A stretch of DNA of 37,587 bases, taken from a bacterium (GTDB lineage Archaea > Thermoproteota > Nitrososphaeria > Nitrososphaerales > Gagatemarchaeaceae). Both the position numbers and the translations under genes were made by a program. The stretch's first letter is position 1. Each line of letters starts with the position of its first letter. The notes under the pieces are model-generated. The model was given only the letters and a program-made list of their open reading frames with translations. It was not told where the DNA came from and did not search any database. Shown here piece after piece: positions 27,968-37,280 of the stretch. The stretch lies in assembly GCA_027310575.1 (NCBI GenBank), contig DAIDAO010000015.1:1-37587 (forward strand). Direction: 5' to 3'.

Positions 27968-28255
27968 ATGTCGTCGTCCTTCAGAACATTGTCTGAAAAT
28001 CTGAATAGCCAAAGAGCAGCGCTCTATGCTGAACGAGAGATGCGAAGAAGAAGCCAACTGCTTCTTGGCATATTGTTAGGCGTGATTGTGGGAGTCGCCG
28101 TCGCCGTTCCACTGATATCCGCTCCGCTTTGTGGTGGCTACAACATGTTGTGCATCCCTGATAGACACCAGTCGCTGACCAGATACCTCTTCGGCCTCGG
28201 AGGGGAGAGTTCCTTCGGATGGCCTATGTTTCAGCACTACGCCTTCTACTGGTGA
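27968..28255 (+). CDS. Small single-span membrane protein, unknown
   Basis: A 95-residue protein from the ATG at 27968; the reading further upstream is antisense to purD. A charged N-terminus (EREMRRRSQ) precedes one membrane span (LLLGILLGVIVGVAVAVPLI). Then comes a short Cys/Trp-containing external tail (CGGYNMLCIPD...). It broadly resembles the small protein at 29725-29961 in order: basic start, Gly/Val-rich span ending VP-I, two Cys, aromatic tail. A GCCAC/GTGGC hairpin lies in the upstream bases. No family recognised. Confidence 0.5.
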   Translation: MSSSFRTLSENLNSQRAALYAEREMRRRSQLLLGILLGVIVGVAVAVPLISAPLCGGYNMLCIPDRHQSLTRYLFGLGGESSFGWPMFQHYAFYW

Positions 28256-28302
28256 GAACGGCCCTACAGCGTCAACTGGGCGGTTCGAGTAAGGGAAACA
28301 AT

Positions 28303-28323
28303 GCTCTATCGATGGTTTGGCTC
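28303..28323. repeat. Left copy of a 21-bp exact direct repeat
   Basis: Begins GCTCTATCGATGG and ends TTTGGCTC; identical to 30240-30260, same orientation, 1937 bases apart. GGTTCGAGT also precedes both copies, 12 and 41 bases upstream. The pair encloses the secreted protease gene and a small membrane-protein gene. Confidence 0.85.
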
Positions 28324-28444
28324 CAGTTACTTGGGGCCAAACTCGGGACGGGAGGCCAATTCCACGCGATTGACCTCTAGTCGTAAACCGCGGAGCCACG
28401 CGAAGAGGAAGGTATGCGTCAAAGAACAGTATGCGAGATTCTCT

Positions 28445-29575
28445 TTAGCCGTAGATTGTATACGCAACCGCTCCAACATCGTTCTTCACTCCAGATTGCG
28501 GCGAGTAGAACGCGTAATTTACGCCTCCCACCGTGGCTCTTCCAGAGTGTATGCCGACTATCCCTCTCCCATACCCGCTCACCTCGATGAACACGGGCGC
28601 ACCACTGTCGCCACTTGCCGAGTTATAGGTGGCTAATGTCTGACAGTACAGCGTACCTCCGAAATAGCCAGAGAGGTCCATACAGACATAAGAAACAGTC
28701 CCCGTTTGTATGTCTGAAGCAAGACCGGACAATTCTATTGAGTTACCCACAGCTGCATCCTCATAGAAACTAATCGAGTACCCAATGTTGCTGACATAAA
28801 CTTGTGGTTTGACATTTGAGTAAGGTACCCAGGCTACATCAGCATCGATTCCACCATAACTCGAAACGGTACCCGTTGAACAGGGTGGATTCGAACAGGA
28901 TGTATCGGGTTGGTAGATCGTTAATCCGACAGGCGTTTTTGCTTCAGTCGTACAAGCGGTGTTAGCCCCAAGGTGTCCCGAAACGACGTAACCTTTCGTG
29001 CTTCCTACCTCCGCTGTATAACCCAGAGTCGAAGTGATCTGGCAGCTTGTCTGTGGATAGTCCCTGGCTTGAACTCCACTTATGATGGGCCGCCACTCGC
29101 TTGTCCTGCTGTCGAGGCTCAAACCGCCCCAAATTGCAAATTTCAGGGGGACGCCCGTCGCAAAAGAGTTCAGACTCTTGCCTGCTGAATCGACCTTGCC
29201 CTCAATCGCTTGCACTACGCTGCTGTTCAACGTTGCTCTGGGACTTACCATGAGCCAGAAGTACCCGTCGGCACCGGCGCCATGTGCTAGAACTACCGTT
29301 CCCCAATATGGGACTGCCGCCCCTCTTAGCTCATGAGCCAGCAAAGTTAGGTCGGACAGGTATGATGACTCGGCTGTTGCGTCGGGAAAGGTAGGGACTG
29401 TACCCACCTTGAGAATGTACGGGGCGAGTTGACCTTCTGGGACAAGTGTTGGTTTCAAAGGTGGCACTTGGGGCGAAGCGAAGCTCACTGGCAGGGGGAA
29501 CAGAAAAGCAAACAGGAGTAAACATACAATGAATGGGCTCAATCTGATTCCCAAGCCCCGATAGAAGGGTTTCAT
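28445..29575 (-). CDS. Secreted trypsin-like (S1-fold) serine protease
   Basis: A 376-residue protein with a basic start, a strong signal peptide (residues about 12-33, cleavage near SFAS) and a propeptide-like region to about 170. The chymotrypsin-fold domain carries VVSGHLGA (His201), DADVAWVP (Asp246) and SGDSGAPVF (Ser324), the full catalytic triad. Cys pairs suggest disulfides. The layout, with a pro-region before a small catalytic domain, resembles alpha-lytic protease/streptogrisin enzymes. It is likely exported to digest extracellular protein. The codons are A/T-richer than those of neighbouring housekeeping genes, suggesting transfer. It lies in the repeat-flanked patch and has a clear TATA box upstream. 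Confidence 0.88.
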   Translation of the reverse strand: MKPFYRGLGIRLSPFIVCLLLFAFLFPLPVSFASPQVPPLKPTLVPEGQLAPYILKVGTVPTFPDATAESSYLSDLTLLAHELRGAAVPYWGTVVLAHGAGADGYFWLMVSPRATLNSSVVQAIEGKVDSAGKSLNSFATGVPLKFAIWGGLSLDSRTSEWRPIISGVQARDYPQTSCQITSTLGYTAEVGSTKGYVVSGHLGANTACTTEAKTPVGLTIYQPDTSCSNPPCSTGTVSSYGGIDADVAWVPYSNVKPQVYVSNIGYSISFYEDAAVGNSIELSGLASDIQTGTVSYVCMDLSGYFGGTLYCQTLATYNSASGDSGAPVFIEVSGYGRGIVGIHSGRATVGGVNYAFYSPQSGVKNDVGAVAYTIYG

Positions 29576-29601
29576 TTCGATTGGTTAGAATAAACAACAA
29601 T

Positions 29602-29611
29602 AATATATATA
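29602..29611 (-). promoter_or_regulatory. TATA box of the protease gene
   Basis: On the minus strand TTATATATAT, centred about 32 bases before the ATG of the protease gene. It is one of the strongest TATA boxes in the window. Confidence 0.55.
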
Positions 29612-29724
29612 AGTCTTGTGTGATTACTCACGCCTGGTGCTATGAAGCTAGCTGGACAGGGGTTAGTTCGCGTAAGGTCTGAGGGTTCATCACAAGAGCT
29701 AAATTCGGACCGTGTGCTATAGCA

Positions 29725-29961
29725 TTGAGCTTGAGAAGGAAGAGAGCGGCTTTGGGATTCGGAATAGGCGTTATACTCTCACTCACCTTCCTAGTGCCCG
29801 TCATTCCCATGTGGATACTAGTTCCTAATCAGTGTGCCACTTCACCCACATGTGCGACGCCAATCCTCCACTCTTGGGGGCTTGGATCGATATCCTACTA
29901 TTTCTTGGGATATGGGGAAACAGTCCGCAACGGGACGTACGATTTCACGATAGGTCGATAG
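29725..29961 (+). CDS. Small single-span membrane protein, unknown
   Basis: A 78-residue reading from TTG 29725. A basic N-terminus (LRRKRAA) leads to a hydrophobic span (LGFGIGVILSLTFLVPVIPMW), then a Cys-containing segment (CATSPTCATP) and a Gly/Tyr tail. It resembles the 95-residue protein at 27968 in layout but only weakly in sequence. The TTG start and absence of a clear promoter keep confidence low. Confidence 0.4.
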   Translation: MSLRRKRAALGFGIGVILSLTFLVPVIPMWILVPNQCATSPTCATPILHSWGLGSISYYFLGYGETVRNGTYDFTIGR

Positions 29962-30334
29962 CCCCAAACCAAGAAGTGCCCAGCCAGTCAAAAAATGGGA
30001 TGATGTTTGAAAGATTGCGAAGCAACTGCAGAAGAACTACCCAACCATCTGATTTCTTGACAGCACCAAAAGAACGAACTTCCCTTACATAACGTCCCGG
30101 ATAAGACCCGTATTCCACATCGTGCCCTTTTGTCAAATGCAGCCGGGCACTAGTCGTCGTGCGTGATGGTGCTCCCGCCACTGAAACTAGGTTCGAGTTT
30201 CGGAATTTTGATGGAGCCTAGAAGTGTAGGCTCTATCCCGCTCTATCGATGGTTTGGCTCTTCATCGGATGCCTCAGACGGCTCTTCCCGAAACCCCTTC
30301 ATCTAGAGCAGGTTACTCGGCGGCGCTTCGGGAT
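29962..30334. other. Gene-free stretch with a hairpin and the right 21-bp repeat
   Basis: No credible coding frame. GAGCCTA (30214-30220) and TAGGCTC (30227-30233) form a perfect 7-bp stem with a 6-base loop. Seven bases later comes the right copy of the direct repeat (30240-30260). The remainder shows nothing recognisable. Confidence 0.5.
30240..30260. repeat. Right copy of a 21-bp exact direct repeat
   Basis: Identical to 28303-28323. It sits just after a short perfect hairpin (30214-30233) and 75 bases before the dph6 stop codon. Confidence 0.85.
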
Positions 30335-31030
30335 TTAGGCGTTCCGTCTGGCCTTCGGAGCGAGGCGCGCCTTTGAAATCTGCAGGTACCCCGAGTCCCC
30401 GCGCCAGTGCGTGGCCGATTCCAGGACTTCGACCCTGCTCTTGAAGAGAGGGCAGTCGAGGACGAAGGTCTCCCCCTCCCCGCCTTCCAGGCCGACGTGG
30501 AACCTGAACTTCCTGCCGAGCGCCACGAGTTCGTCCACCGCGCCCTCGTCCAGGATCCTGCCCAGCCAGCTCTGATCGAGACCGAGCGCAGACACGCTCA
30601 CCATCAGCACGACGAACCCGTCCCTGACCAGCCTGCGGAGGTGGCCCTCGGGGTCCGACCCCCAGAGCGGAGAGACGCAGCCGAGCCCCAGGCTCTTGCA
30701 GACCTTCTCCACCCTGCTCTTCTGGTAGACGCTGGCGAGCGCGCCTGTGTAGACACCCTCGAGCCCGAACCTCTCCTTGGCCCCGGCAAGGGCCCGCTCG
30801 AGGTCGCCCAGCTCCTCCTCCTTGACCCCTTCCGTCGTGGCCGTGACCTGGGGGACGCCCATCGCCTGCGCCTGCAGGCGGGTCCATTCGACGTTCGGGA
30901 AGTGGAACATGTAGGACGCTTCTGACTTCGGGAACAGGGTGACCACGCAGGTGAGTTCGTCCTTCTTCGTGGCGAGCCAGGCGGCATAGGTGCTGTCCTT
31001 GCCCCCGGAGAAGAGCGCCGCTACCCTCGT
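30335..31030 (-). CDS. dph6: Diphthine-ammonia ligase family ATP pyrophosphatase (probable ACG start)
   Basis: A protein of about 231 residues. Its start region RVAALFSGGKDSTYAAWLA holds the PP-loop S-G-G-K-D-S. Then come YMFHFPNVEW, EEELGDLERAL, GVYTGALASVYQKSRVEKVC, PLWGSDPEGHL, GLDQSWLGRILD, and GLEGGEGETFVLDCPLF, all typical of Dph6/MJ0570-like enzymes. They perform the last amidation in diphthamide synthesis on EF-2. No ATG, GTG or TTG is in frame before the PP-loop. The codon expected to encode Met is ACG (31028-31030), seven bases after AGGTGG. The first canonical codon (GTG 30946) would delete the active site. It diverges from the srp54 promoter. Confidence 0.87.
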   Translation of the reverse strand, partial: TRVAALFSGGKDSTYAAWLATKKDELTCVVTLFPKSEASYMFHFPNVEWTRLQAQAMGVPQVTATTEGVKEEELGDLERALAGAKERFGLEGVYTGALASVYQKSRVEKVCKSLGLGCVSPLWGSDPEGHLRRLVRDGFVVLMVSVSALGLDQSWLGRILDEGAVDELVALGRKFRFHVGLEGGEGETFVLDCPLFKSRVEVLESATHWRGDSGYLQISKARLAPKARRNA

Positions 31031-31095: not shown

Positions 31096-31203
31096 ATGCT
31101 AGACTCGCTGAGAGAGGGCCTGCAGGCTGCAGTCAAGAAGCTCGTCGGAGCCGACTTGCGCAGAAACCGTGTGTGGGGTTCACTGCTCCTCCGTCGGGAA
31201 TGA
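31096..31203 (+). pseudogene. Truncated 5' end of srp54 (first 20 codons, then foreign sequence)
   Basis: The frame opens with MLDSLREGLQAAVKKLVGAD, which aligns residue for residue with the start of the intact SRP54 at 35958 (MLDSLREGLQNAISKVLKSN). It then becomes LRRNRVWGSLLLRRE and stops at 31201. Codons are GC-ending (GAC, CTG, AAG, CTC, GTC), like host genes. A proper TATA box precedes it at leaderless spacing. So this is the original promoter and start of srp54, cut off after about codon 20 by the island that follows. A short N-domain peptide might still be made. Confidence 0.85.
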
Positions 31204-31224
31204 CTCGACTTGCGTTGGGTATCA

Positions 31225-31500
31225 TTACTTGCTTTTTCCGACCTTGGTGACGGTTTCAACCCACCTATGACGGCAGTTCTCGCATTCGAAGGCCACTTCA
31301 AACGAGTCTCGCTCGATAGGAATATCTTCATACGTGACTTTGGCCACGTTCATGCCGTATCCTCTCGGGTCAGCGGCCTTGACGACAAAAGTGCGAGGGA
31401 TTCGCTCCGTTCCGCCCTCTGATTTCACGAGTTTCGTGCCCCGTGATTTTACCGCGAAGCGGTGACCACAACTCGGGCATCTACGCATGAACTCCCTCAA
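31225..31500 (-). CDS. Small double zinc-ribbon protein
   Basis: A 91-residue protein (start at residue 1 or at Met5). MRRCPSCGHRFAVKSRG near the N-terminus and FECENCRHRWVETVTKVG at the C-terminus each give a CxxC knuckle, together one four-Cys zinc site. Between them is a charged segment with DPRGYGMNVAKVTYEDIP. It resembles small zinc-binding proteins of archaeal mobile elements in layout. Nucleic-acid binding is plausible but unproven. It is the gene next to the left boundary of the island. Confidence 0.6.
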   Translation of the reverse strand: MREFMRRCPSCGHRFAVKSRGTKLVKSEGGTERIPRTFVVKAADPRGYGMNVAKVTYEDIPIERDSFEVAFECENCRHRWVETVTKVGKSK

Positions 31501-31611
31501 CTTGATTTAGGTTACCTGCCAAGTACTTGGGGCTTTGCTAACATTGCATATCGCCGGTGGAATTCCAAGGAAACCTTCGTCTGGGGTATCAGAAACTCCA
31601 AACATCAAGGG

Positions 31612-32172
31612 TCAACAGTTGGGGGTTGGGCAAACGTGACCTATACCTGTGCTCACAAAACTCTGAACGACGGTCACCTTAATCTGATTTACCGAATCTG
31701 GATTGTAGTAAATGACATAATAGCGGCCGGGATTCAGGTGGACATCCAGAGTTCCGTTCATCACTCCTTTGAGGACAAAATAGGGTGGGCACAGTTGGGG
31801 GCATACCTCGGGCTGGGGCGTCGTGTAAAGCGGGAAGTTGTCATACCCCGAGGCTGACAAGACATAAACTGAGATGTTTCCATCAGCCGTGAATTTCCCG
31901 GATATCGTTCCGTTCGTAGACAATAAGAATTCGACCCCGGTGGCGGTCCGAGGACGGACATCGGTAACGTTTCCTGTTTGCAAGATGGTGTATCCCATCG
32001 CGGAGGTAGACGATTGATCTTGATGGTTTCCTCCCGAAATCACTGACAGAGCTAGAACCACGACTAGAACAAATATCACTGCGCCGGCGACCAGCAACCT
32101 CTTCATTCTCGGGCCTGCCAAGCCGCTCCCATTCTTGGGAGACACCATGGTCATCGCTCGTTCCAATCCCAT
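31612..32172 (-). CDS. Exported or membrane-anchored protein, unknown
   Basis: Up to 186 residues; the Met at residue 23 (MKRLLVAGAVIFVLVVVLAL) may be the real start, giving an N-terminal signal anchor. The rest is a small beta-rich extracellular domain with N-x-S/T sites, a Cys pair (VCPQLCPPYF) and a C-terminal VCPTPNC. The phrase LNPGRYYVIYYNPDSVNQ resembles a beta-sandwich edge seen in archaeal surface proteins. No enzyme motif. It lies 15 bases downstream of the other exported gene, so the two probably form one operon. Confidence 0.6.
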   Translation of the reverse strand: MGLERAMTMVSPKNGSGLAGPRMKRLLVAGAVIFVLVVVLALSVISGGNHQDQSSTSAMGYTILQTGNVTDVRPRTATGVEFLLSTNGTISGKFTADGNISVYVLSASGYDNFPLYTTPQPEVCPQLCPPYFVLKGVMNGTLDVHLNPGRYYVIYYNPDSVNQIKVTVVQSFVSTGIGHVCPTPNC

Positions 32173-32187
32173 CGCTCGAACTCCGAC

Positions 32188-32637
32188 CTATGGAGTCGGG
32201 CTCTGCGGTCCGCTACACGAAGGGTCAGGAGCCATATCCGTGACAGATGCGTAGGCGTAGTTCACGCCTGAGGTTTGCGGATACGCTCCATCCCATGTAA
32301 TCATGACGTCCTTCGAATTGTCCTGATTTATTAGGCCGGAGTCCCAGCTTTGGCCGGTTGTCAGGTTGACCACCGGACCAAAGGCCCAGGCTCCGTTCCA
32401 ATACGCGGCAGCCTGTGCGTAACTGTCAGGCCCGTATGGGTGTATCATCTTTCCATAGAATTCCTCCTGAATGGCAAAGGAATCGCCTGTGACTTCGACC
32501 CAAGCGTAAGCTCCGCCATCAGAAGTGGTCTGACAAGACGCCACTGTTAGGCTGGCGTGAGCTTTCAGAGGCACAATCGAAAAGCTTGTCATCGGAAACA
32601 GGAAAAGCAACGCACCTGCGAACTTTTTCGGTGCCAT
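32188..32637 (-). CDS. Secreted protein, unknown
   Basis: A 149-residue protein with a clear signal peptide (KKFAGALLFLFPMTSFSIVP, cleavage near KAHAS). The mature part of about 120 residues is rich in Tyr, Trp, Ala and Gly, with one Cys near each end (VASCQTT, DPSCSGP) that could pair. The TATA-like TTTATTATG (about 32662-32670) is centred 29 bases before the ATG, so this is the first gene of the two-gene exported operon. No family recognised. It diverges from the HxlR regulator, whose operator is about 90 bases away. Confidence 0.6.
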   Translation of the reverse strand: MAPKKFAGALLFLFPMTSFSIVPLKAHASLTVASCQTTSDGGAYAWVEVTGDSFAIQEEFYGKMIHPYGPDSYAQAAAYWNGAWAFGPVVNLTTGQSWDSGLINQDNSKDVMITWDGAYPQTSGVNYAYASVTDMAPDPSCSGPQSPTP

Positions 32638-32727
32638 TGCGGGCTCAGAAATGACTTGGACATAATAAACTGAACTGACATCAGAGAAATCTTGTGATGC
32701 GTGAGAAACGATTTCCTCTCCAGGAGA

Positions 32728-32759
32728 TTACACAATAGAATTTATCTAGTATTGTGTAA
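32728..32759. promoter_or_regulatory. Perfect inverted repeat operator at the HxlR gene start
   Basis: TTACACAATA (32728-32737) and TATTGTGTAA (32750-32759) are exact inverted 10-bp arms around the spacer GAATTTATCTAG, which itself contains a TATA-like TTTAT. The right arm touches the ATG at 32760. This is the classic arrangement for autorepression by a dimeric winged-helix regulator. Confidence 0.75.
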
Positions 32760-33218
32760 ATGCTTGGGCTTGTGGGCGGTCAGGGAGTTCGCCATGATGA
32801 TCTGCAATTGAAAGAATACGCGTCCCTGAGCGGTCGCATTCATCAGCTGTGTCAAGATTTCAAGAAGGAATCCAAGCCCGCGCTTTCGAGAGAATCTATA
32901 TCGGAGACCGATAATAGAATTTCCCGGACGATACTGACGATGTGGATTATCGACATCATTCTTTTCCTCTCCGTTCGATCCTCTTCTCGTTTCGAAGAGA
33001 TTCGGAAAGAGCTACCCGGGATAAGCGGCAAAGTCCTTTCGCGCAAACTCACGCTCTTGGAAGGGAAGGGATTGATAACTAGACATGTGACAGGTTCGAA
33101 GCCAGCGAGGGTAGACTACCAACTCTCCTCAAGAGGTGTAGTCCTAGCGGAGTTGCTTGAGCCAACTATGATGTACCTTCGGCTCATCGAAGACTCCGTC
33201 AAACCTTGTGCTAAATGA
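32760..33218 (+). CDS. HxlR-family winged-helix transcriptional regulator
   Basis: 152 residues from the ATG at 32760. If the TATA in the operator is used, the real start may be the GTG at 32772 or the TTG at 32808. After a 60-residue helical N-terminus comes a winged helix: FEEIRKELPGISGKVLSRKLTLLEGKGLITRHV (recognition helix LSRKLTLLE) and the wing RVDYQLSSRGVVLAELLEP. This F-x-E-L-R-x-x-L-P-G-I-S-x-x-V-L-S-x-x-L pattern is typical of HxlR/DUF24 regulators. It probably binds the perfect inverted repeat just upstream. The gene ends 23 bases before the convergent LAGLIDADG gene. Confidence 0.8.
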   Translation: MLGLVGGQGVRHDDLQLKEYASLSGRIHQLCQDFKKESKPALSRESISETDNRISRTILTMWIIDIILFLSVRSSSRFEEIRKELPGISGKVLSRKLTLLEGKGLITRHVTGSKPARVDYQLSSRGVVLAELLEPTMMYLRLIEDSVKPCAK

Positions 33219-33241
33219 GACGTCGTAACCGCGCCTAGGGT

Positions 33242-34185
33242 TCATTGCGCGTCCTCTGGCACCACCTGGCAAATGCCCTCTGGTGGTATTCCCAGAAGAA
33301 GCCTGGCTCTAATGACCTTCTCTTCCAACCTCTTTCGCGGTTTCGCGATTTCCGCCCTGCAACGCGCTATCTGATTCCTCTTGTTCCGGGTTCTGATGTA
33401 AGGTTCTGTGTTCCGTATCACCTTCGCCAATCCGTCGGCCCCCATGTCACCAGCGCAAAACCGTGGCAGAGCTTCGAGGAATCCCGCGGGTTTGCATGCT
33501 TGGTCGGCACCACGGAGCATTCGACCCCGTTCGCGCGCAAGAAAGCGCAGATCCCGGCAAGTGGTAGTTTCTCCTTCTGGTAAATGCTCACGCGGTATGT
33601 GCTGTGTGATGCGTTAGCCTCGAAGCACCCTTCCGTGTCTATCCAGGCAGCGACCAATGCCCAGTCCCACGTAGCCCCCAACCTTGGTTCGGCCTCCGTC
33701 AGGACCATCTCTTTCTTGACGATGGCGCTTATGCCGATCTTGTACGTCTCCCCGTGCAAGAACCTTCCCCGCCATCTTTCTGGGACTTCGACGAGCACGT
33801 GCTGATTCGATTCTGTCTGCTGATGCTCCACTTCGAAGTCGCAGATCCCGATTATGGTCCCTCGAATGAGGTAGGTCGGCCCTACCTCGAAGTGAAATCC
33901 CGCCTTCGATTCGAAGGTCGGCAGCCAGAAGTCGAAGCGATAACGAACCCTCGTCCCCCTAACCCTGTAAACCCTCCCCACCAACGAAGCGGGCCCATGG
34001 AACGCCCCTTTTGGCCCGCTTACCGGAGGGTTCAACAACTGGCCCAGTCTCCACCAGTTGAATCCGGGCTTGGCCCTGCTCACCAGCTGTTCCAGCTCGG
34101 GGCTCATGGTTGCCTCTTTGACAGAGCTGAACTTGATTGTGTACAGCTGATTGGGCACGAACGTGCTTTGATGCTCTCTTGGCAC
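33242..34185 (-). pseudogene. LAGLIDADG homing-endonuclease-like gene with a one-base frameshift
   Basis: From GTG 34185, the frame shows three similar beta stretches (FVPNQLYTIKF, FEVGPTYLIRGTI, FLHGETYKIGISAI). The LAGLIDADG-type motif ALVAAWIDTEGCFEANASH follows, then VSIYQKEKLPLAGICAFLRANGVEC. The frame stops soon after FALVTW. A second frame continues with GADGLAKVIRNTEPYIRTRNKRNQ, the usual conclusion of this domain. The switch lies at five G's (33439-33443); one more G would restore the frame. It may be a sequencing error, a decayed gene, or frameshifting. Only one LAGLIDADG motif is seen, so a homodimer would be expected. It diverges from cas1 by 31 bases. Confidence 0.7.
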
Positions 34186-34216
34186 GTGGAGGGCAGGGGC
34201 CAGAGTCCCCGACAAG

Positions 34217-35890
34217 ATGCTGGCTGACCGAGCTCTTGAGGACGTCGGCAGGCACGGCTGGGTCACCGTTCCTCCTGAGGCGGCAGAACTCGCCGGGTGG
34301 CTACACGGCCTGAATCAGGAAGGGGATTCCCGTCTCCGTAACATCTACGAGTCGATGGAAGATATGTCCGATGAGCGGTGGGCCGCGGTCCTCAACCCCT
34401 CCGGAAGCGAAGTTAGGCGCATCTTGGACGTGCTCGCCGCCTCAGGTGGGCTTGACAAGACCGTTTGGTTCAGGGAACTCGGCCGCCCGGCAATTCCATA
34501 CGTCCTTCCAGGCAAGGCACCCTTCAAAGAGCAAAGGTGCGGCCAATGCGCGTTCTACGCCCCAGCGAAGCGGAGATGCGTGGTGTGGTGGCTGGCGAAC
34601 AAGCGCGGGAGATTCGTCCAGGAGCGGTCGAAGTGGCCAGGTTCAATCACGGAGTTCGAATTGCACAAGATGAAACATGCGTATCACATCGGGCCGCATT
34701 CCTCTGCCTGCCTCAGGTTCTTGGACAAGAAGAGGGACCACCTAAAGCCTGCAATCCCTAGGCTGTGCGAAATCTGCAGGAAGACCGTACGGCCTACAGG
34801 CAAGTCCGCAAGGTGCCGCAACTGTGGGACCCTGTATGAGAACTGGCACGGGAAGGTGAAGGTCCAGACAGCTTACCAACACAGATTCAACATGATCTAT
34901 CATGAAGTTACCGGGGGTGACTCGAAGGCAGACCTCGACGTGTGGAAGTCCAAGGTCAAGGAAGACCTTCAGGACAAGAGAGTCGTGTTCGGAATCGATG
35001 ACGACCTTGAAGATGCCTTGGCGGAGGAGCATCTGGAGCCAGAGCCGAAACTCCATTGGAAACGGCCAGCCTATGACGAAACCCTTCAGCAACGGGTCAA
35101 TACGCTGGCACGGAATACGGATATTGCGAGGCAACTCTCTATCGCGATGGCGCAAAGCGCCCTGAACGCGACCCGTAGGATTGCAAAGTTTGCCAAGGTG
35201 TACCAAGGCGACGCCAGCTCTCTCACTGCGAAGCAGGAGAGATACCTGGCTCTGATGAGTGGCGCCAATCCTGCCAAGCTGCTTCCGTACGAGGCGTTGG
35301 TGATGAAACAGTACTGGATTTGCTATGGGCTCGCCCTCAGAGAAGCTGTAGAATGGGTCGGTCCAAGAAAGAGATCGAGGTTTGTCCCCGAGTCCGTGGA
35401 GAGTCCAGCAGGAAGAGCCAGGGGATACTCACCGGTAGATGCGGCGATAAACTATCTCCATCAGAGGCGTCGGGGACGTGCGGAGCAGATTAACATGGAA
35501 GTGGGTTTCCATGGAACTTGTGACGGGTTCCTACACAAGAGAGCCAGTGGATCCAAGAAGACTGGTTTGATTTTCGACATGATTGATCCCTTCAAGTTCG
35601 CGGACAGAGAAGAGCTCCTGCTCGTGGTGCTCAATCGAGGTTTGACCTGGAGAGACTTCAAGATAGAGGCGGACAGGAGGGGGTCGAACTTCTACTACCC
35701 AGCGAACGCAGCCACGGCGAAGTTGGACCAGGCTGGGAAAGATGCAGATGGCCTTCTGGTGAGCTATAGGGGGCGGAATATCCACCTTGCTGAGGCATAC
35801 CGTGAGTTTGCGTCACGTCTGTTGGAGGTCTCAATGACATCTAAATCCGTGCCTTCGCCGGGAGATATGTTCGTCTTTCAGATGGACTAG
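34217..35890 (+). CDS. Solitary Cas1-family integrase-like protein with N-terminal Cys clusters
   Basis: 557 residues. The C-terminal half (about 285-535) matches the Cas1 catalytic domain: PYEALVMKQYW (Glu359), GYSPVDAAINYLHQ, then CDGFLHKR (His440) and LIFDMIDPFKFADREELL (Asp454, with Asp457). These are the E, H and D metal ligands of Cas1 integrases. The N-terminal half lacks the usual Cas1 beta domain. It carries CGQC...C (Cys108, 111, 121, perhaps 165) and a zinc ribbon CEIC...CRNC (Cys184, 187, 200, 203). No Cas2, Cas4, CRISPR repeats or PolB are nearby. A casposase-like integrase of a mobile element is the likely role. Confidence 0.85.
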   Translation: MLADRALEDVGRHGWVTVPPEAAELAGWLHGLNQEGDSRLRNIYESMEDMSDERWAAVLNPSGSEVRRILDVLAASGGLDKTVWFRELGRPAIPYVLPGKAPFKEQRCGQCAFYAPAKRRCVVWWLANKRGRFVQERSKWPGSITEFELHKMKHAYHIGPHSSACLRFLDKKRDHLKPAIPRLCEICRKTVRPTGKSARCRNCGTLYENWHGKVKVQTAYQHRFNMIYHEVTGGDSKADLDVWKSKVKEDLQDKRVVFGIDDDLEDALAEEHLEPEPKLHWKRPAYDETLQQRVNTLARNTDIARQLSIAMAQSALNATRRIAKFAKVYQGDASSLTAKQERYLALMSGANPAKLLPYEALVMKQYWICYGLALREAVEWVGPRKRSRFVPESVESPAGRARGYSPVDAAINYLHQRRRGRAEQINMEVGFHGTCDGFLHKRASGSKKTGLIFDMIDPFKFADREELLLVVLNRGLTWRDFKIEADRRGSNFYYPANAATAKLDQAGKDADGLLVSYRGRNIHLAEAYREFASRLLEVSMTSKSVPSPGDMFVFQMD

Positions 35891-35914
35891 CCTGGCAATT
35901 CGTATCGGCTAACC

Positions 35915-35923
35915 CTATTAAAC
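35915..35923 (+). promoter_or_regulatory. Island-borne TATA box now driving srp54
   Basis: CTATTAAAC is centred about 39 bases before the srp54 ATG, giving a leader of about 13 bases. A six-codon frame (ATG 35938 to TGA 35956) lies in the leader and its stop overlaps the srp54 ATG. Confidence 0.45.
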
Positions 35924-35957
35924 AACCGAGAATCCTGATGACCCTAGGATACATCTG

Positions 35958-37280
35958 ATGTTAGATTCACTCCGTGAAGGGCTCCAGAATGCAATATCCA
36001 AGGTGCTGAAGTCGAACGTGGTGGACGAGAAGGTCACCAAGGAGTTCGTCCGCGACCTGCAGAGGGCGCTCATCCAGTCTGACGTCAACGTCAGGATAGC
36101 CCTCGAGGTGACGGAGAGGGTCCAGAAGAGGGCCCTAGAGGAGAAGCCGCCGGGCGGCGTAACGAAGAAGGACCAGATAGTCTCCATCCTCTACGAGGAG
36201 CTCGCCAGGCTTCTGGGCGGCCAGGGAGGCCTGCAGCTGGGCAAGGACAGGACGAACGTGCTCGTGATGCTCGGGGTCCAGGGGTCGGGGAAGACCACGA
36301 CGACCGCGAAGCTGGCCCGCCTCTACTCCAAGCGCGGGTTCAAGGTGGGGGTCGTAGCGGCGGACACGTTCCGACCGGGCGCTGTGGCTCAGCTGAAGAC
36401 CCTGGTCGCGTCGTCGGGGGTGGAAGTGTACAGCGACGAGAAAGAGAAGGACTCTGTGAAGATAGCCAAGGAAGGCAGGAAGCGGTTCGAAGGCTCCAAG
36501 AACCTGGTGATAATAGACACCGCAGGGAGGCACAAGGAGGAGAAGGGGCTCCTCCAGGAGATGAAGGAGGTCGTGAACGGCGTGAAGCCCGACGCCACTG
36601 TGCTTGTGATCGACGGGACCATCGGTCAGCAGTGCTACAACCAGGCTCTCGCCTTCCACCAGGCCGCCCCTGTGGGCGGGATCATAGTGACGAAGCTCGA
36701 CGGAGCGGCGAAGGGGGGAGGGGCGCTGGCCGCGTCAGCCGCCACCGGGGCCAAGATATTCTTCATCGGCACAGGCGAGAGGATAGACGACCTCGAGGAG
36801 TTCGCCCCCACCAGGTTCGTGGGCCGCCTCCTCGGCATGGGGGACCTGAAGGCCCTCATGGAGATGGTGAAGGACGCGGAGGTCGTGGTCGACGAGAAGA
36901 TGACCCAGCGCATGATGTCTGGCAAGATGACGATGAACGATCTGCTCGCGCAGTTCGAGCAGATGAAGAAGTTCGGGTCTCTGAGGAAGGTCCTGGAGCA
37001 CATCCCAGGGTTCTCCGGCCAGGTCGACGCGAAGGAGCTCGACAAGGCCGAGGACAGGGTCAGGGTCTACAAGTCGATCATCCAGTCCATGACTGGAGAT
37101 GAGAAGGAGAACCCGGAGAGCATCAACGCGTCCAGGCTCAGGCGCATCGCGAAGGGGTCGGGGCGGGGCGAGAAGGACGTGCGGGAGCTTCTGACGAGGT
37201 ACAAGCAGATGAAGACGCTGGTGAAGACCAGCAAGGGCCGCGAGCTCAGGCAGATGATGCGGCGCCTGGGTGACCAGTAG
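35958..37280 (+). CDS. srp54: Signal recognition particle 54 kDa GTPase, with island-derived first codons
   Basis: 440 residues, full length. N domain (1-85), G domain with GVQGSGKT (106-113), VVAADTFRPGAVAQLK, LVIIDTAGRHKEE and TKLDGAAKGGGALAAS, then the methionine-rich M domain with MTMNDLLAQFEQMKKFGSL and SRLRRIAKGSGR for 7S RNA and signal-sequence binding. SRP54 targets ribosomes making membrane and exported proteins. The first about 14 codons use A/T-ending triplets unlike the rest of the gene, while a second, host-like copy of the start lies at 31096. So the 5' end and promoter appear to have been replaced by the island. The Pus10 gene follows directly. Confidence 0.97.
   Translation: MLDSLREGLQNAISKVLKSNVVDEKVTKEFVRDLQRALIQSDVNVRIALEVTERVQKRALEEKPPGGVTKKDQIVSILYEELARLLGGQGGLQLGKDRTNVLVMLGVQGSGKTTTTAKLARLYSKRGFKVGVVAADTFRPGAVAQLKTLVASSGVEVYSDEKEKDSVKIAKEGRKRFEGSKNLVIIDTAGRHKEEKGLLQEMKEVVNGVKPDATVLVIDGTIGQQCYNQALAFHQAAPVGGIIVTKLDGAAKGGGALAASAATGAKIFFIGTGERIDDLEEFAPTRFVGRLLGMGDLKALMEMVKDAEVVVDEKMTQRMMSGKMTMNDLLAQFEQMKKFGSLRKVLEHIPGFSGQVDAKELDKAEDRVRVYKSIIQSMTGDEKENPESINASRLRRIAKGSGRGEKDVRELLTRYKQMKTLVKTSKGRELRQMMRRLGDQ

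Follow-up and report, generated by a model that had tools for sequence, protein, structure and literature searches.

A duplicated RNA gene end marks the probable integration of a small cassette without an integrase in a Gagatemarchaeaceae genome

A conserved RNA gene of a Gagatemarchaeaceae archaeon has its 3' end duplicated. The genome contains one intact copy of the gene and, further left on contig DAIDAO010000015.1 (the 37,587-nt stretch analysed here is called the window), one copy that is 3'-only and consists of the last 21 nt. The two 21-bp copies bracket a patch with a candidate secreted protease gene (Table 1). They are probably the scars of a small cassette integrated site-specifically into the 3' end of the RNA gene, in the way that viruses elsewhere use tRNA genes. 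Judged by their homology to sequences in a related genome, G023, the ends of the patch belong to a mobile family, to which a second genome, G018, lends moderate support.

The integration may be pictured as follows. A circular molecule that contains the final 21 bp of the RNA gene would recombine with the chromosomal 3' end. On the right the RNA gene would remain complete, with a 3' end contributed by the element, and the original 3' end would be displaced leftward to become the orphan 21-bp fragment. The patch would then be a 1.94-kb integrated element without an integrase, and the enzyme would most likely be a tyrosine recombinase acting in trans, from a virus or plasmid since lost.

The direct repeat and the RNA gene

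An initial annotation of the window had described two identical 21-bp copies, and this is borne out by direct comparison within the window (21 of 21 bp, direct orientation), by dinucleotide shuffles (chance expectation for a 21-bp repeat 0.00) and by 60 Markov simulations, in which the longest exact direct repeat measured 14-18 bp, compared with 21 bp in the window. The genome-wide search that it had called for finds no dispersed copies: at up to three mismatches the 21-mer occurs at two places in the genome (1.58 Mb in 61 contigs, 97% complete), namely the window copies. Involvement of the tRNA-Ala gene at 2014-2087 is ruled out by distance.

The initial annotation did not recognise the right copy as the terminal part of a conserved RNA gene, its 3' end. 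A DNA search with positions 28000-30600 in 41 genomes revealed a stretch of about 72 bp, starting at 30240, with up to 99% identity, next to adjoining DNA with about 65-80%. This non-coding RNA gene of about 70 nt is present in 24 of the 31 genomes of the genus, including all 13 with completeness of at least 90% and contamination of at most 5%. In an alignment of the 24 sequences the mean column identity is 0.91 in the RNA versus 0.57 and 0.46 in the flanks (60 bp each). The conservation ends at the outer edge of the 21-mer, so that the repeat begins exactly at the 3' edge of the RNA, and the 3' flank is not conserved among relatives.

Table 1. Features of the candidate cassette and the adjacent RNA gene
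Feature	Position	Strand	Remarks
Left 21-bp copy	28303..28323	.	orphan fragment of the RNA gene 3' end; one candidate attachment site
Inverted repeat GTTTGGC...GCCAAAC	28315..28342	.	left end of the putative element; homologous to L080 11671-11715
Putative inserted cassette	28324..30239	.	1916 bp between the copies; 1937 bp start to start
Predicted secreted serine-protease-like protein	28445..29575	-	376 aa; hydrophobic N-terminus, GDSGAPV motif by eye
Predicted small membrane protein	29731..29961	+	76 aa, TTG start; weakly supported
Hairpin GAGCCTA/TAGGCTC	30214..30233	.	just inside the right end; same hairpin position occupied in two relatives
Right 21-bp copy	30240..30260	.	final 21 nt of the RNA gene; second candidate attachment site
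Box C/D-like RNA gene	30240..30309	-	intact, conserved (24-sequence alignment); putative integration target
TATA-like element CCTAAATC	30332..30339	-	about 23-30 nt upstream of the RNA

Read on the minus strand, the RNA has closing ends GCUCUA / UAGAGC, two GAUGA boxes, and GGAAGAGCCGU-CUGAG. Segment GGGAAGAGCCG can form 11 bp with the 23S rRNA of a congener (GATGTCGGCTCTTCCC), and CUGA follows the guide match. The target presumably lies near the peptidyl-transferase region. The 11-bp pairing alone is not significant, as about 7-8 of 40 shuffled RNAs give at least 11 pairs somewhere. The C/D motif of the window RNA is atypical, with a degenerate D box (NNGA) and no evident bulge, and Rfam contains no family for this RNA. 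The core pattern of the RNA occurs in 30 stretches of genome contigs. Of these, 24 carry the labels Thaumarchaeota, Nitrososphaerota/-ales, Ca. Gagatemarchaeum or "archaeon", one is from Methanomethylicia and five have bacterial labels. Candidatus Gagatemarchaeum stordalenia is among the records with this RNA, which suggests a host in or near the Gagatemarchaeaceae. In the Methanomethylicia sequence (L124), and in L120 with the same core, the same guide is surrounded by the boxes GTGATGA, CTGA, GATGA and CTGA. Thus the block of guide, CUGA and GAUGAAG recurs in a clear C/D RNA, and these textbook boxes are the best argument for reading the window RNA as a box C/D-like guide RNA. The bacterial-labelled matches other than L120 were dismissed as chance, as were two viral matches to the RNA pattern, in which the RNA architecture is absent.

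The 23S rRNA of one genome, G005 (L132), is about 3345 bases long against a model of 2987 positions. It looks interrupted just upstream of the guide target, perhaps by an rRNA intron.

The repeat corresponds to the terminal 3' part of a structural RNA gene, which is whole on one side and a fragment on the other. The initial annotation had proposed looking for relatives with a single copy and no insert. Indeed, the RNA gene is intact in 23 other genomes of the genus, and in the stretches compared no second copy lies beside it. The 21-mer, again at up to three mismatches, has matches in 18 of the 31 genomes, with extra copies in G023, G018 and G041 only; the one in G041 lies inside an apparent ABC-transporter frame and is taken as chance. 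None of the relatives shows an empty site whose outer flank matches that of the window copy; since the RNA 3' flank is not conserved, an exact empty site is not demonstrable. Compared with the RNA 3' flanks of the relatives, the DNA outside the left copy has a log-odds score of 0.19 (relatives -6.87 to 6.29). The DNA left of the right copy scores -6.02, near the bottom of the range and below 22 of 23 relatives. These scores faintly suggest that the left outer DNA is the old chromosomal flank.

Related inserts and the candidate crossover

In G023 (contig C99) the left end (28313-28358) and the right end (30193-30258) of the patch recur 2.3 kb apart, with 80% and 90% identity, respectively. The homology extends 34-39 bp past the 21-mer on each side, and with the 21-mer removed the score of the flanks is reached by 0 of 5000 shuffles at each end. 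The cargo differs, consisting of a PadR/methyltransferase-like protein and a membrane protein. Such matching ends around unrelated cargo tell against a non-mobile origin, that is, a local duplication of the RNA gene 3' end followed by a gathering of genes between the copies, with the likeness to G023 and G018 being chance or functional. This origin would be in line with two observations, the absence of known mobile-element functions among the genes of the insert and the AT-richness of the outer left flank, but we consider it improbable.

Integration at the RNA gene 3' end remains the preferred reading, and G023 provides candidate details of the crossover. The G023 insert lies away from the RNA gene, whose intact copy is on a different contig (C44). 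Its left junction contains only the right half of the 21-mer, TGGTTTGGCTC, and its right junction only the left half, GCTCTATCGATGGTTT; TGGTTT is common to both. Both junctions are precisely what results if a site GCTCTATCGATGGTTTGGCTC recombines with a foreign sequence that has only TGGTTT in common with it. Hence we deduce that the 21-mer travels with the element and that the crossover would fall within about 6 bp, TGGTTT. The G023 insert is also bracketed by an outer 26-bp direct repeat with 24 of 26 positions identical (L080 11560-11585 and 13993-14018).

In G018 (contig C17) the hairpin, the 21-mer (19 of 21) and a stretch resembling the left end are contiguous. On moderate similarity, this is the joined form predicted from the window and G023. 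The G018 flanks are equalled by 34 and 251 of 5000 shuffles in comparison with the window and by 2 and 110 of 5000 in comparison with G023. The insert, 1916 bp plus the duplication, carries two secreted-protein genes between two ordinary-looking genes and is bounded by an exact 13-bp duplication ATTTAACATTGAA (L134 135-147 and 2064-2076). Of 27 other loci, 15 show an uninterrupted site with the same 13-bp overlap, one of them on a near-identical contig from the bin of G018 itself. As the joined site is intact in G018, this copy did not enter through it. Given this and the outer repeat in G023, more than one mode of mobility is possible for the cassettes.

The 13-bp duplication and the empty sites in G018 suit a transposon-like insertion, in which the 21 bp in the window would be a target-site duplication, made by the staggered cut of a transposase or Cas1-type integrase that happened to hit the RNA gene end. 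So does the presence, at a distance of about 4 kb, of a Cas1-like gene (34217-35890), whose Pfam match (E 8.9e-5) narrowly misses the cut-off. A target duplication would, however, stay behind, yet in G023 halves of the 21-mer occur at the ends of an insert that is not located at the RNA gene, and in G018 19 of the 21 positions lie inside the element. Nor does any inverted pair join both ends among the 25 longest of 34 pairs. Overall, a transposon-like insertion seems unlikely, and a transposon with terminal inverted repeats was rejected on the same 25 pairs. A casposon was rejected as the Cas1-like frame lies outside 28303-30260, and an integron cassette as the core RYYYAAC / GTTRRRY is absent by eye from both strands of the joined site.

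The attachment region is framed by hairpins. The 7-bp hairpin noted earlier just before the right copy is real, and an additional inverted repeat, absent from the initial annotation, spans the left copy. In G018 two pairs are changed on both sides with the pairing kept, a pattern drawn from three sequences only. These features, together with the intact copy of the site inside the G018 insert, would also be expected if the main role of the hairpin-21-mer-hairpin region were to serve a rolling-circle element as its origin of replication or nick site, with integration as a by-product. No Rep-like gene was seen among the scanned main frames of the three inserts, and we regard a rolling-circle element as very improbable.

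Site-specific integration of a cassette is again the reading followed below. The three elements are the only ones found in 151 relatives, and all three belong to the training set of the attachment-site model R1. Applied to these relatives, R1 added one non-significant place (G103, E 0.096). A weak match in G049, from a sister genus, is that genome's own RNA gene copy with no element. A 20-base pattern gave no matches, and a 15-base core pattern gave 59 stretches in viral contigs, about as expected for so short a pattern. Tentatively, the three inserts could represent a family of integrase-less, integron-like cassettes that have in common only a hairpin-21-mer-hairpin site of about 95 bp, exchange their cargo (secreted protease-like in the window, other secreted proteins in G018, PadR/methyltransferase-like and membrane proteins in G023), are moved in trans and home to the 3' end of the C/D-like RNA gene; on present evidence this seems possible but doubtful.

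Cargo, surroundings and the recombinase

The initial annotation had named a secreted protease and a small membrane protein between the repeats. Both frames exist, and the larger has the hydrophobic N-terminus and the GDSGAPV motif; a protease assignment is confirmed neither by profiles (no Pfam family at E up to 1) nor by solved structures (VesB protease, E 0.31, is the sole match in PDB). The membrane protein frame has no independent support. The protease-like gene is found in one of the 41 genomes, its own, and in none of the 40 relatives. Conserved synteny of the whole patch, which the initial annotation had set against a mobile origin, is therefore not found. Relatives of the protease are likewise absent from viral contigs and plasmids. 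Gagatemarchaeaceae are reported in the available text of PMC10640624 to gain peptidases, including secreted ones and ones of S01 types.

A frame for a small membrane protein of 95 aa, weakly similar to the one inside, lies at 27968-28255, immediately beyond the left copy. It is possibly a remnant of an older cassette.

The enclosed DNA had been called A/T-richer. Its lower G+C is real (about 0.47-0.56 in the region) but not restricted to the insert, reaching left to about 27750 and recurring at 31250-33000. The suggestion that the repeats delimit a small mobile element or represent a site of recombination fared better, given that there are no dispersed copies, no conserved synteny, and homologous ends elsewhere in a relative. 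Loss of the cassette, also suggested, was not seen.

No recognisable recombinase or integrase frame is present in the insert. The genome itself (97% complete) has no match to the tyrosine recombinase family PF00589 and no Xer-like gene either. PF00589 has at least one match in 19 of the 31 genomes of the genus. Since neither the insert nor the genome contains a recognised recombinase, the cassette would have been mobilised in trans. A tyrosine recombinase is suggested by the shortness of the overlap, by the use of a secondary site in G023 and by the choice of an RNA gene as target. A search with R1 near 30 tyrosine-recombinase loci of the genus gave no match, and no autonomous partner was found there.

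The only other integrase-like gene near the cassette is the Cas1-like frame, which belongs to a neighbouring insert. This insert of about 4.9 kb (31098-35958) separates dph6 and srp54, which are close together in the relatives compared, and encodes the Cas1-like protein, secreted proteins and a regulator of HxlR type. At 31098, adjoining dph6, a truncated start of srp54 is left together with its promoter; in the intact srp54 at 35958 the start is coded differently and the promoter is of another type. It is possibly a solo-Cas1 integrated element at the srp54 5' end.

Comparison with known systems

According to the available text of PMC6563490, 39 of 68 integrated elements of Thaumarchaeota are in tRNA genes, 15 are intergenic and 14 are in protein genes. 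After the action of integrases that use tRNA genes, the element has the complete gene on one side and only a 3' fragment of it on the opposite side (PMC8371274, PMC6563490, available text). The window resembles the Thaumarchaeota elements with attL and attR (PMC6563490) in its short direct repeats that correspond to a gene 3' end, with the gene intact on one side. It differs in its target, a box C/D-like RNA, a class unnamed in the available text, in its size of 1.9 kb and in having no recognisable integrase. With the att systems of archaeal tyrosine recombinases (PMC8371274, available text) it shares the identity between element and chromosome, a short central overlap (about 7 bp there) and secondary sites, but no recombinase is present in the window case. 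The words "sRNA", "ncRNA" and "non-coding RNA" have no occurrences in the available text of PMC8371274, nor has "sRNA" in that of PMC6563490.

Integron cassettes and archaeal CALINs, as presented in the available text of PMC9668308, are likewise small integrase-less units with a hairpin-bearing site and exchangeable cargo. In contrast, the joined site here has no attC-type GTTRRRY core (by eye), the insertions are single rather than in arrays, and the identity with the RNA gene is long. Casposons (see also the available text of PMC6563490) share insertion at 3' ends of genes in Thaumarchaeota, and a Cas1-like gene is nearby here. However, this gene is outside the cassette, and neither inverted repeats nor a DNA polymerase were seen inside.

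Judged by titles and the beginnings of abstracts, searches of the open-access literature revealed no report of sRNA or C/D RNA genes as integration targets. The window suggests that conserved small-RNA genes other than tRNA genes serve as docks for integration in archaea, and att repeats classified as intergenic may conceal RNA genes. The candidate att site, for which a crossover has been deduced and a joined form occurs in nature, gives a concrete handle for seeking the helper recombinase of such tiny cassettes. Integration would also account for the gain of a secreted protease-like gene by this soil archaeon. What is known is integration at the 3' ends of RNA genes, as in tRNA genes; what would be new is a C/D-like RNA as the target and the exchange of cargo behind common ends.
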